A stretch of DNA of 35,519 nt. Origin: Pseudomonadota bacterium. GTDB taxonomy: Bacteria > Pseudomonadota > Alphaproteobacteria > Caulobacterales > Aquidulcibacteraceae. The stretch is taken from NCBI GenBank assembly GCA_016195245.1, contig JACQAC010000061.1:1-35519 (forward strand), in the 5' to 3' direction. The notes under the pieces were generated by a model that was given only the letters and a program-made list of their open reading frames with translations, had not been told where the DNA came from and searched no databases. The position numbers and the translations under genes were made by a program. Below are positions 3,789 to 13,736 of this stretch, in pieces (the stretch's first letter is position 1; each line of letters opens with the position of its first letter).

Positions 3789-4889
3789 TTATTGGCCCTG
3801 TTGCGCACAGCGCCCAAATGCGACGGGGCAAATCCGCCCACCCGACTCTGATTGCACCTTACCCGGCGCTTGCATAGCGCGCTCCACCAGATCAGCCAGC
3901 GCGTCGATAAAGCGCGGCGCAACCCCAAGGGCAGGGGCGCGGAGATAGAATGGAACGCCTCGCTCCGCCGCAAGCTGCGCGTACTCGATATCGAGCTCGA
4001 CCAGGGTTTCGACATGCTCGGACACGAAGGCGATGGGTGTGACGATGACGCCGGTGAGATCGCGCGCGGCGGCAATCACCTCATCCTCTGTCGAGGGTCC
4101 CAGCCACTCCAATCGCCCGACGCGCGACTGGTAGCAGATGCGCGTGTCCCACTCTGATGGCAAAGCACGTTTCACAGCAGCGACGCTCTGCTCCACCTGC
4201 CATTGATACGGATCGCCCGCCCCCACGACACGCTTTGGCAGACCGTGCGCTGAGAACAGCACGCGCGGATTTGGCGGTTCACCGGCTTTGCGCCAGGTCT
4301 CAAGGATCGCATCGGCATGCGCCTGCGCGAACTTCTGGCCGGTAGGGTAGCAGCAAATCGTCGAAGCCGGCAGCTTTGACGCCTGCTGCCACGCGTGCAG
4401 CGAGGATGCCGTGGTGGTGGTGGAGAACTGCGGATAGAGCGGCAGCAGGATCGCGTCTGTCGCGCCCCACGCTTCCGCCGCTCTTGCGGCGTCCTTCACG
4501 AACGGCTTCCAATAACGCATCGCCGGGAAACACTTGAACATGACATTGCCGATGCGCTTGGCGATCGCCGCATCGAGCGCTTCAGCTTGCTGCAGGGTCT
4601 CGGGCAGGATCGGTGAGCGACCACCCATCAACTCATAGTTCCTCCGCGCTACGCGCTCGCGTGAACCGGCGATCACTTTCGCCAACAAGAACCGGAACGG
4701 CTGCGGGTAGGGGATGATGGCGCGATCATTGAACAGATTGAACAGAAACGGCCGCACCGCCTTCGGTTCATCGGGGCCGCCGAGATTGAAGAGAATAATG
4801 GCGACACGCCGCGAGGTGAGGATCCGCAAGCCGTGCTTCTGCTGGCGCTCCGGCTGCGGCGCTTCGGATTCGACTGGAACAGCGCTCAC
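3789..4889 (-). CDS. hemH: Ferrochelatase
   Basis: VAIILFNLGGPDEPKAVRPFLFNLFNDRAIIPYPQPFRFLLAKVIAGSR, LLPLYPQFSTTTTAS, SAHGLPKRVVGAGDPYQWQVE; GTG start at 4889 overlaps the hemE stop by 4 nt; exact start uncertain. Confidence 0.95.
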   Translation of the reverse strand: MSAVPVESEAPQPERQQKHGLRILTSRRVAIILFNLGGPDEPKAVRPFLFNLFNDRAIIPYPQPFRFLLAKVIAGSRERVARRNYELMGGRSPILPETLQQAEALDAAIAKRIGNVMFKCFPAMRYWKPFVKDAARAAEAWGATDAILLPLYPQFSTTTTASSLHAWQQASKLPASTICCYPTGQKFAQAHADAILETWRKAGEPPNPRVLFSAHGLPKRVVGAGDPYQWQVEQSVAAVKRALPSEWDTRICYQSRVGRLEWLGPSTEDEVIAAARDLTGVIVTPIAFVSEHVETLVELDIEYAQLAAERGVPFYLRAPALGVAPRFIDALADLVERAMQAPGKVQSESGGRICPVAFGRCAQQGQ

Positions 4890-5926
4890 GCGGCGCCTTT
4901 CACAATGCGCACCAATTCGGCGACATTTTCGGGCGTTGCATCCGGTGTGATGCCATGACCGAGATTGAAGATGTGCGGGCTGCCGCGGAAGGCTTCAACC
5001 ACCTGCCGCGCGCCTTGCTCCAAGAACTTTCCGCCAGCGACAACCAATTGGGGATCAAGATTACCCTGCAGCGGCATGTTCGCCGGCGCCTGTTCGCGCG
5101 CGAAAGCCGCTGGTGTTTGCGTATCGACTCCAAGCGCAGTGATGCCGGTCTCGCGCGCGTAGCGCCCAATGTGTGCGCCGGCGCCGCGCGGAAAGCCAAT
5201 GATCGGTACTGTGACGCCCAAGGCCCGTAGTCGTGAAACAAGCGCCGTCGTCGGTTTCAGGATCAAACGCTCAAAGAGGGGGGGCGGTAGTCCTTCAGAC
5301 CAGCTCTCGAAAATCTGCAAGCAATCCGCGCCGGCTTTCGCTTGCGCCGCCAGATGCTGCGCTGTCGCTTCGACCAAGACATTCAAGAGCACATCCACTT
5401 CCTGGCAGCGGCGATAGGCCGCCAACCGCGCCTCATCCTTATCGCCGCCGCGCCCCTGCAACATGTACGTCGCAACCGTCCACGGTCCGCCCGCGAAACC
5501 GATCAGCGCGATAACTTTGGATATCTGCCCGCGAATGCGTTCCACAGTTTCATAAACCGGCGAGAGCCGTTGGATCGCTTTCTGCGGATCATCGAAGGTC
5601 CACCCAGCTTCGGGAATCAATGGCTCAAGCCGCGGCCCTTCGCCTTCTACGAACCAGACCTTCCGGCCCAGTGCATCGGGTAAAACGAGTATATCCGAGA
5701 AGAGGATTGCGGCATCCAATGGGAAACGCCGCAGCGGTTGAAGCACTGCCTCCGTCGCAAGAGCAGGGGAGTAGCAAAATTCCAGAAAGCTCTTCGCTCG
5801 GCCTCGAAGCTCTCGGTACTCAGGAAGATAGCGTCCGGCCTGACGCATGATCCAAATCGGAGGAGGATCGATCCTCTCTCCGTTCAGAACGCGTAGAAAG
5901 ACCGAAGGTTCTTTCAGGTCGACCAT
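4886..5926 (-). CDS. hemE: Uroporphyrinogen decarboxylase
   Basis: MVDLKEPSVFLRVLNGERIDPPPIWIMRQAGRYLPEYRELR, PWTVATYMLQGRGG; start re-assigned to 5926 behind GGAAGGAGACA RBS (the supplied ORF extends further 5'). Confidence 0.97.
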   Translation of the reverse strand: MVDLKEPSVFLRVLNGERIDPPPIWIMRQAGRYLPEYRELRGRAKSFLEFCYSPALATEAVLQPLRRFPLDAAILFSDILVLPDALGRKVWFVEGEGPRLEPLIPEAGWTFDDPQKAIQRLSPVYETVERIRGQISKVIALIGFAGGPWTVATYMLQGRGGDKDEARLAAYRRCQEVDVLLNVLVEATAQHLAAQAKAGADCLQIFESWSEGLPPPLFERLILKPTTALVSRLRALGVTVPIIGFPRGAGAHIGRYARETGITALGVDTQTPAAFAREQAPANMPLQGNLDPQLVVAGGKFLEQGARQVVEAFRGSPHIFNLGHGITPDATPENVAELVRIVKGAA

Positions 5927-6258
5927 TGTCTCCTTCCAAATTTTTTTCTTAATCGTGATTAAGAGGGACTCGTTGTTGTGGCGATATGCAAACTGGGACA
6001 ATCTCCATGTCCACAGCAAATCCACAGAGTTGCTCTTTTCGGCCCTGCGTCAAAATCGCTTTGGTTAGAAGGCGTTGTGCGGACCGATTCGAGCGCTTGA
6101 TTCTTTCGACGATCCGAGTGGGGTCTGTGGAGAGGGGTGGAGGGAATCGCTGACGAGGCGAAAGAAGAACGCGGTTTCCGGCGCGTCCCCTGATTTCACG
6201 CGCAACAGCCCCTTACTTGCTGACAGCTTGTTCACAGGCTGCGACAGCCTGATATGAA
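5927..6258. other. Putative chromosomal replication origin (oriC/Cori-like)
   Basis: Divergent hemE / ppsR(DUF299) intergenic region; AT-rich stretch 5938-5962; DnaA-box-like 9-mers ATGTCCACA (6007), AAATCCACA (6018), CTCTCCACA on minus (6126-6134), TTGTTCACA (6228), each 7/9 to TTATCCACA; inverted repeat CTTAATC-GT-GATTAAG (5948-5963). Confidence 0.72.
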
Positions 6259-7092
6259 ATGACGATGCGTCAGCGTTTGGCCACATATTTCAACGTTCAT
6301 CTCGTCTCGGACTCCACCGGGGAGACGCTGGCGGGCGTCATGCGCGCCACTTGCGCCCAGTTCGACAACATTATGCCCATCGAGCACTCATACTTTCTGG
6401 TGCGATCGGTGCGGCAATTGGAGCGGGTGCTGGAAGAGATTGCCGGGGCGCCAGGCGTCGTCATGTTTACCCTTTCCAACCTGGAGCACCGCGCCATCCT
6501 CGAAGAGCATTGCGCCAAGATCAGCATGCCCTGTGTCGCCGTTTTGGACCCAGTGCTCGATATCACCTCGCGTTACCTCGGCCAGGAGCTGAACCATCGC
6601 GTTGGTGCGGCGCGCAAACTCAACGCCGAATATTTCAAGCGCATCGATGCTCTCGATTTTGCCATGGACCATGACGACGGCCAGCAGGTGATCGAACTCT
6701 CGACCGCCGACGTCATCCTCGTTGGCGTGAGCCGCACTTCGAAAACACCTACGAGCGTCTATCTCGCGCATCGCGGCGTAAAGGCAGCCAATGTGCCGCT
6801 GGTGCCGAACGTGCCGCTGCCCCCTGAATTGTTCGCGAAAAATCATCCGCCGGTGGTCGGTCTTACGATCTCCGCCGATCGGCTCGTTCACATTCGCCGA
6901 AACCGGCTGGTCGCCATGAAAGAAACCCGCGCTGGCGATTACACTGAAGAAGAAGCGGTGCGCCGCGAAGTGATGGACGCCCAGCGCCTCTTCGAGAGGG
7001 AAGGGTGGCCGACGATCGATGTGTCACGCCGCTCGATTGAAGAGACCGCGGCCGCCGTCCTCAATCTACTCGCGGAGCATCGCGGCGTATGA
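6259..7092 (+). CDS. ppsR: Pyruvate, phosphate/water dikinase regulatory protein (DUF299, kinase/pyrophosphorylase)
   Basis: FNVHLVSDSTGETLAGVMRATCAQF, DVILVGVSRTSKTPTSVYLAHRGVKAANVPLVP, YTEEEAVRREVMDAQRLFEREGWPTIDVSRRSIEETAA. Confidence 0.95.
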   Translation: MTMRQRLATYFNVHLVSDSTGETLAGVMRATCAQFDNIMPIEHSYFLVRSVRQLERVLEEIAGAPGVVMFTLSNLEHRAILEEHCAKISMPCVAVLDPVLDITSRYLGQELNHRVGAARKLNAEYFKRIDALDFAMDHDDGQQVIELSTADVILVGVSRTSKTPTSVYLAHRGVKAANVPLVPNVPLPPELFAKNHPPVVGLTISADRLVHIRRNRLVAMKETRAGDYTEEEAVRREVMDAQRLFEREGWPTIDVSRRSIEETAAAVLNLLAEHRGV

Positions 7093-11717: not shown

Positions 11718-13736
11718 ATGGGCGCGCTCGCTCGCATCGTGAGATCATACACGCCGCGTGGCTTGGCCGCGCGCGCGGTGTTGTTCACGACCGGGCTAAT
11801 GGTGGCGACGGCGTTGCTTTCGGCTGTCACCATCATGTTTGGCGCCGACCGCGAGAGCGAACGTCGACAGCTCGAAGTTACAGGTGAACTCGCGCAACAT
11901 TTGGCGACCGTGTCCGGTAATTTCATTGCCGAAGACAACATCCGCGAACTCAACTCGGTTACGACCGTGGCGACGTCCCGCCGCGAAGTGCGACGCATCA
12001 CGGTTCACGATGAGCAGGGGCGAACCATCGTTGCGCATGGAGGCAGCGCCTCCGATATTGCGGCCGCCGATGTGCTTGCCGCGCATGTAGCCAGCAGTGG
12101 CGAACCAACCTACGTGCGCACCGCCGACAACGGCCTCGCGCTTGCCGCCCCCATAATTCACAACGGCGAACGGCTTGGAGTCGCCGTGATGATGTGGAAC
12201 GGCAATGCATACCGTTTCGATGCGTTGCCCGCCCTCGCTCCGTTTCTTCTCATTCTGATTTGTTTGACCGGCGCAGCAGTTCCGCTGACGGCGCATGTGG
12301 TTCGCGCCGCCGTCGCACCGCTGGGCGAACTCGTGCGCTTCGCTGAACGGATTGGGGATCAAGGCCAAACAGAGTCAATCAAGCTCCAAACTGGCGATGA
12401 GTTTGAAACGCTCGCGAACGCCTTCAACAACATGATCGGCCGCCTCGATCAGTCCATTCAGCGCATTCAGCAAATAGCATTTGTGGATCCGGCGACGCAG
12501 CTCCCGAACCATGATCGCTTCGTGAGAGAGATTGATTTCTTCATTCTACGGGCCAAGGCCGAATCCGGCGCTGTGCTCGTTTTCGAACTTCGTCGTCTCC
12601 CCAAACTCGTACAGACGCTCGATCCGGCTGCGTCGCGAGAGTTTGTGCGGATGATTTCCGAGCGTCTGTCGAAGGCTATGACCACTGTGGATCGAGCCGT
12701 GCGATTGGTGGGGGAGGGAAGGTCGCCTCCGATCGCGGCTCGTCTTGGCGCCGTCGAATTCGGCGTGTTTATACCCAACCTCGCATCGCCGTCCGACGCC
12801 GCGCGGTTCGCGCAGCACCTCAATGCCGCCCTCAACCAACCGCTTGAGTGGCGCGGCCACAAGCTCACGCTCGGCGCCTGCTGCGGTGTCGCGTTGGCGC
12901 CGCGTGACGGTAGGGCCGCAGAAACCGTCATCCGCCATGCGCGCATGGCGCTGGGTGCGGCCAGCAATTCGCCTGCCGCCTTGAAGCTCTACACGCAGTC
13001 GCTGGATCGTGAGGCGGTGGCGCGGCTGACGCTTGAGCGCGAAATGCGCGGCGCCCTCGAGCGCAACGAGTTTCGCGCGTATTTCCAGCCCAAGGTCAAT
13101 CTCCGCTCTGGCCGCATTGAAGCATGCGAGGCGTTGGCGCGCTGGGTCCGTCCCGATCGTACGATCGTAAGTCCGGGCCGCTTTATCCCTGTAGCGGAGG
13201 AGAGCGGGCTAATCGGTCCGTTGTCGGACGCAATCATGCGCGAAGCATGCTGGAAGGCGGCGTCGTGGGCGCGCTCGGGACACCCGGCGAAAGTCGCCGT
13301 CAATGTTTCACCTCTGCAATTCCGCGGCGATCGTTTCGCAGAGCGCGTTCTTCGCACCGTGCAGCATGCTGGTTTGCGGCCCGATGCGCTGGAATTGGAA
13401 ATCACCGAATCGGTGGTCATGGAAGACCCGGACCGGGCCCTGCACGTAATCCGGCCCTTGCGCGACGCTGGCGTGCGTCTGGCCATCGATGATTTTGGGT
13501 GCGGCCATTCCAATCTGGCCGCGCTGTCAAGACTGCCCTTCGATGTGATCAAAATCGATCAGCAGTTTGTACGCGCTTTGGAGCGCGGTGACGCCCAAGC
13601 GCCGGCGATCATTGAAATGATACTGGCTTTGGCGGGTGCGCTCGACATGGAAGTGGTCGCCGAAGGCGTCGAACGACGTGAGGATTCCTTCAGCGCAAGC
13701 GCGCGCAAATTTGTCTCCGGTCGTGGGCCCATGTGA
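11718..13736 (+). CDS. Membrane HAMP-degenerate GGDEF-EAL protein, apparently 3'-truncated
   Basis: Two hydrophobic segments flanking a sensor region, HAMP-like linker, GGDEF replaced by GAVEF, EAL domain motifs EALARW, VNVSPLQF, LELEITESVV, AIDDFGCGHSNL, VIKIDQQFV, VVAEGVE; usual C-terminal QGY segment missing. Confidence 0.88.
   Translation: MGALARIVRSYTPRGLAARAVLFTTGLMVATALLSAVTIMFGADRESERRQLEVTGELAQHLATVSGNFIAEDNIRELNSVTTVATSRREVRRITVHDEQGRTIVAHGGSASDIAAADVLAAHVASSGEPTYVRTADNGLALAAPIIHNGERLGVAVMMWNGNAYRFDALPALAPFLLILICLTGAAVPLTAHVVRAAVAPLGELVRFAERIGDQGQTESIKLQTGDEFETLANAFNNMIGRLDQSIQRIQQIAFVDPATQLPNHDRFVREIDFFILRAKAESGAVLVFELRRLPKLVQTLDPAASREFVRMISERLSKAMTTVDRAVRLVGEGRSPPIAARLGAVEFGVFIPNLASPSDAARFAQHLNAALNQPLEWRGHKLTLGACCGVALAPRDGRAAETVIRHARMALGAASNSPAALKLYTQSLDREAVARLTLEREMRGALERNEFRAYFQPKVNLRSGRIEACEALARWVRPDRTIVSPGRFIPVAEESGLIGPLSDAIMREACWKAASWARSGHPAKVAVNVSPLQFRGDRFAERVLRTVQHAGLRPDALELEITESVVMEDPDRALHVIRPLRDAGVRLAIDDFGCGHSNLAALSRLPFDVIKIDQQFVRALERGDAQAPAIIEMILALAGALDMEVVAEGVERREDSFSASARKFVSGRGPM

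Follow-up and report, generated by a model that had tools for sequence, protein, structure and literature searches.

A probable chromosomal replication origin between hemE and ppsR in a Terricaulis-like bacterium of the Caulobacterales

Where does the chromosome of an uncultured, Terricaulis-like bacterium begin to replicate? In Caulobacter crescentus the origin, Cori, is established between hemE and the COG1806/DUF299 gene, and the predicted Rickettsia origin also lies between these two genes (PMC1914354). We analysed a stretch of DNA of 35,519 bp (the window) that contains such a gap; it is one contig (C75) of a draft MAG of 2.96 Mb in 275 contigs, 81% complete. The source lineage is Terricaulis-like and belongs to the Caulobacterales; in a recent phylogeny, Terricaulis falls within the sister clade of the Hyphomonadaceae (PMC12700997). 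A previous reading of the letters alone (the sequence-only reading) had proposed the gap as a replication origin. This proposal is supported by position, gene neighbourhood, a cluster of DnaA boxes, conservation across 30 genomes, a nearby parB and the GC skew of relatives. Judged from sequence comparison, the gap is very probably the chromosomal oriC (probability about 0.88).

Results

The gap spans positions 5927–6258 of the window (332 bp). On one side it is bounded by hemE (4886–5926, minus strand, ATG at 5926), a gene whose position is conserved in relatives, and on the other by ppsR (DUF299/COG1806), an open reading frame at 6259–7092 on the plus strand. As had been claimed, transcription diverges from here, with rho-hemJ-hemH-hemE running leftward and ppsR-maf-aroE-coaE-dnaQ rightward. 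The neighbouring gene order was kept in all 20 genus spans examined, and placement between hemE and the COG1806/DUF299 gene was found in relatives as well as in the window. The gap has a GC content of 0.52 versus 0.62 for the window, and it matched no Rfam family. An ATG at 6265 is a possible ppsR start in place of 6259 and agrees with the start in most aligned relatives. Elsewhere in the window, a GGDEF/EAL gene and an adenosine/sugar-kinase gene with odd C-termini overlap by 178 bp (13559–13736); the interval is 2–3 kb shorter than in three relatives, which we read as a deletion or an assembly join.

Four DnaA box-like 9-mers had been named in the gap and all are present: ATGTCCACA at 6007–6015, AAATCCACA at 6018–6026 and TTGTTCACA at 6228–6236 on the plus strand, and CTCTCCACA at 6126–6134 on the minus strand, each seen in the window sequence and in the genus alignment. 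The 11-bp spacing of the first two is correct, as is the score of 7/9 given to every box against the E. coli consensus TTATCCACA. At the position of the second box many relatives carry TTATCCCCA or TTGTCCCCA, which are W-box-like (TCCCCA, where the window has TCCACA). The alignment further revealed a third register of the 11-bp array, overlooked before, at 6029–6037 (plus strand); it reads GTTGCTCTT in the window, possibly a weak box, and has the consensus CTTGTCC in relatives. Such clustering is above chance: the gap holds four sites with at most two mismatches to TTATCCACA where 0.62 are expected (p = 0.0025), and three TCCACA where 0.16 are expected (p = 0.0005). No second stretch of 332 bp with three TCCACA occurs in the 35.5-kb window, and the exact pair TCCACA-N5-TCCACA (11 bp) occurs a single time in the window's draft genome.

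The AT-rich tract of the sequence-only reading was recovered too. Of all 40-mers in the window, the one beginning at 5925 is the richest in AT (72.5%), and this tract of about 40 bp (5925–5964) is a candidate unwinding element. Beside it, at 5967–5978 on the plus strand, lies the nearly invariant GACTCGTTGTTG, which holds a GANTC (CcrM) site together with GTTGTTG. Two more GANTC sites were found in the window sequence and the alignment: GATTC at 6099–6103 within a conserved CGATTCC, and GAATC at 6144–6148 within a conserved GGAATCG, its inverted partner. All three GANTC sites (5967, 6099 and 6144) had previously been overlooked and are conserved across the genus. Of the 30 genomes searched, 27 encode a RAMA domain protein of the CcrM type, as does the window's genome.

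Across 30 genus genomes the gap measures 314–361 bp and its elements stand in a fixed order: GACTCGTTGTTG, the DnaA-box pair 11 bp apart, the half-conserved third register TTGTCC, CGATTCC, the reverse DnaA box, GGAATCG and, immediately before ppsR, AACAGCTTGTCCACA. Counting as DnaA boxes all sites with at most one mismatch to TTATCCACA or TTGTCCACA, we found 2.1 boxes per gap versus 0.08 per 332-bp coding control; GANTC amounted to 4.4 per gap versus 0.42. From -17 to +3 kb around ppsR in 20 genomes, 46 boxes fell into the 500-bp bin of the gap and at most eight into every other bin, making the cluster unique in its neighbourhood; background density was 0.12–0.18 per kb in three stretches of about 400 kb. 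The ppsR-proximal box is TTGTCCACA in most relatives and TTGTTCACA in the window. TTGTCCACA is a high-affinity DnaA box in Mycobacterium and Streptomyces (PMC4285127). The arrangement had been described as low-affinity and Caulobacter-type. As a whole this description holds only in part, since the TTGTCCACA of most relatives scores 8/9 against the E. coli consensus.

Using the G-box, W-box and CtrA motif definitions of PMC4285127, we took as a positive control for the locus the hemE/ppsR gaps of Caulobacter-like genomes (genus g23, recognised by these same origin motifs). There the G-box TGATCCACA was found in 5 of 6 gaps, along with TCCCCA W-boxes, and in each complete gap perfect CtrA boxes (TTAA-N7-TTAA) numbered three or four; this CtrA motif and TGATCCACA are both seen in L221 (G187), L223 (G152) and L222 (G093). 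In contrast, TGATCCACA was never among the boxes listed for the gaps of our genus, which have TTGTCCACA or TTGTTCACA instead. Perfect CtrA boxes are almost absent (0.03 per gap in 30 genomes), and the window gap has no TTAA-N7-TTAA at up to one mismatch. A TCCACA between -75 and -15 of ppsR is shared by 24 of 30 genus genomes and 6 of 6 Caulobacter-like ones. The strict IHF consensus was missing in 7 of 8 genus gaps checked and likewise in Caulobacter-like gaps, and is thus powerless as a discriminator.

The GC-skew check suggested for the locus was run on sampled stretches of complete relatives rather than on the draft MAG, with a divided outcome. At coarse sampling, the cumulative minimum of both G032 and G033 fell on the 20-kb piece that holds ppsR. 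At 10-kb bins, however, the minimum of G032 lay about 30 kb away on the hemE side in a weak and noisy profile, while G033 at finer scale had a local minimum near the gap, again in a noisy profile. We also scored the skew at fourfold-degenerate sites, comparing it with baselines for the left and the right arm that were kept separate by gene strand. The likelihood flips its sign at the hemE|ppsR boundary, with hemE, hemH, hemJ and rho left-arm-like and ppsR, maf and aroE right-arm-like, each single gene being weak evidence.

A parABS system is close by. In genus members with both genes on one contig, ppsR and parB are 14–15 kb apart, parB being on the hemE side. In the window's draft genome parB is on a separate contig (C212); this is expected, since towards hemE the window reaches only about 6.3 kb from ppsR. 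Canonical parS (at most two mismatches) is missing from much of the genus and matched in only some genomes. Relaxed variants of the canonical pattern recovered parS-like sites between about -5 and -13 kb in most members (about -5.8, -8.2, -9.5 and -12 kb). Among them are GTTTCGCGTGGAAC within a quinone oxidoreductase gene (554–567 of the window; a position shared by nearly all members of the genus), GTTTCATGTGAAAA at the start of mnmE and a pair near -9.5 kb. The dnaA gene is 100–225 kb from the locus in relatives. DnaA of the whole genus scores under the TIGR00362 cut-off (L002, L059), and the two proteins read (again L002 and L059) have the domain IV signature GGFDHTT, where E. coli DnaA has GGRDHTT.

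The polarity of the KOPS-like octamer GGGNAGGG gave a discordant result. In three complete genomes it is oriented 74 forward to 2 reverse on the ppsR-side arm and 3 to 37 on the other arm, independent of gene strand. Between -10 and 0 kb, however, it follows the sense of the ppsR arm (9 to 1) despite lying on the hemE side. Over 20 genomes we counted 38 forward and 0 reverse sites between -7 and 0 kb versus 2 and 45 beyond -9.9 kb, counts which overstate independence as some recurrent sites are homologous, while distinct sites agree too. Polarity thus switches 7–10 kb from the gap, on the hemE side and amid the parS-like sites (L109/L156 in G033, L121/L136 in G032, L175/L176 in G052). Other family members checked (G011, G012, G023, G029) did not contradict this position. 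Inspection of the sites listed for the Caulobacter-like G108 gave no clear polarity and inverted repeats are present, so that this genome is of no use as a control.

Discussion

If the hemE/ppsR gap is oriC, DnaA would bind the helically phased pair at 6007 and 6018, possibly the third register at 6029, and also the flanking boxes at 6126 and 6228, and would then assemble across the gap. The AT-rich tract beside hemE would melt, and two forks would depart from it. The three conserved GANTC (CcrM) sites may act through timing or hemimethylation state, replacing the CtrA-box control of Caulobacter. Against the origin reading stand the 7/9 scores of the window boxes, the displaced GGGNAGGG switch, the weak skew and the boxes at the dnaA promoter.

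The main rival, to which the switch points, is a start near mnmE and mnmG, about 7–10 kb away towards hemE and amid the parS-like sites; the gap would then be a double promoter regulated by DnaA and CcrM, or a relic origin. Both the strand-independent polarity change and the parS-like sites themselves speak for such a start. Yet the 20 genomes show no DnaA-box cluster there, the DLH-mnmE interval is mostly coding and has little intergenic DNA, the neutral fourfold skew changes arms at hemE|ppsR, and the homology of several recurrent sites leaves fewer independent events than counted. We consider this start quite improbable. The DLH/mnmE junction itself was rejected as an origin, having neither a sizeable gap nor boxes. 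Another reading, for this family, places the centre of the chromosome's strand-polarity switch in the parS cluster, 7–10 kb away from the DnaA boxes: either forks effectively start there, or the centromere and not oriC sets the polarity of FtsK-type motifs, and origin control has moved from CtrA boxes to fixed CcrM sites. Taken as a whole, we hold this to be rather unlikely.

In many bacteria dnaA adjoins oriC. An origin beside dnaA-dnaN, 100–225 kb off, would reduce the gap to a mere divergent promoter, and most genus genomes do have boxes upstream of dnaA (27 over 26 loci, counted in the two 250-bp bins from -750 to -251; 3 in G032). A frequency near one box per genome is, however, compatible with dnaA autoregulation. 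By GGGNAGGG polarity dnaA is well within one arm, and it is far from parB; Cori of Caulobacter, moreover, is at hemE/COG1806 (PMC1914354). We regard a dnaA-side origin as very improbable. Equally improbable is that the gap serves as a divergent promoter for hemE and ppsR in which boxes and GANTC sites control transcription only. The genes are indeed divergent, and in Caulobacter both DnaA and CcrM act on transcription as well (PMC4468827, PMC8116508). What argues against this explanation is a box array with three GANTC sites at fixed spacing in 30 genomes at a classic origin locus, with parB and the skew minimum close by; in addition, no sigma-70-like promoter match in the gap was above chance in a scan that is weak for alphaproteobacteria.

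The gap as probable oriC can be set beside known origins. With Cori of C. crescentus it shares the locus, the boundary genes, an AT-rich tract of about 40 bp, GANTC sites, a nearby par locus and a plus-strand DnaA box 30–80 bp upstream of ppsR. It differs in length (about 330 bp in the genus versus about 500), in having two or three boxes phased at 11 bp, in boxes that resemble TTGTCCACA and not TGATCCACA, and in the near absence of perfect CtrA boxes. The hemE boundary, DnaA boxes and an AT content above that of the genome recur in the predicted origins of Rickettsia and Wolbachia, although CtrA and IHF sites, which we did not find here, had helped to call those origins, and the partner gene in Wolbachia is COG1253 instead of COG1806 (PMC1914354). 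Like oriC of E. coli, the gap combines a DnaA-box array with a DUE, here a candidate one, and is enriched in a motif for adenine methylation, GANTC in place of the GATC of E. coli; unlike it, it lies at an unrelated locus, no SeqA-like reader was identified and the role of methylation is putative.

A very probable origin can now be placed for an uncultured Terricaulis-like lineage, together with an element footprint from 30 genomes. The comparison with the Caulobacter gaps shows that, within the order, hemE/DUF299 origins do not always carry CtrA boxes, while DnaA boxes and GANTC sites are retained here. Such variability fits a flexible evolution of CtrA input at origins, and in most other origins of alphaproteobacteria no CtrA sites are seen (PMC4468827). 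GANTC motifs also occur in Caulobacter origins (PMC3973325). Neither the absence of CtrA sites nor the presence of GANTC is therefore new in kind; the set of control sites is lineage-specific. In another family of the order, hemE/ppsR gaps of about 335–367 bp contain 8–12 GANTC sites (L229 in G204, L238 in G064, L235 in G111).
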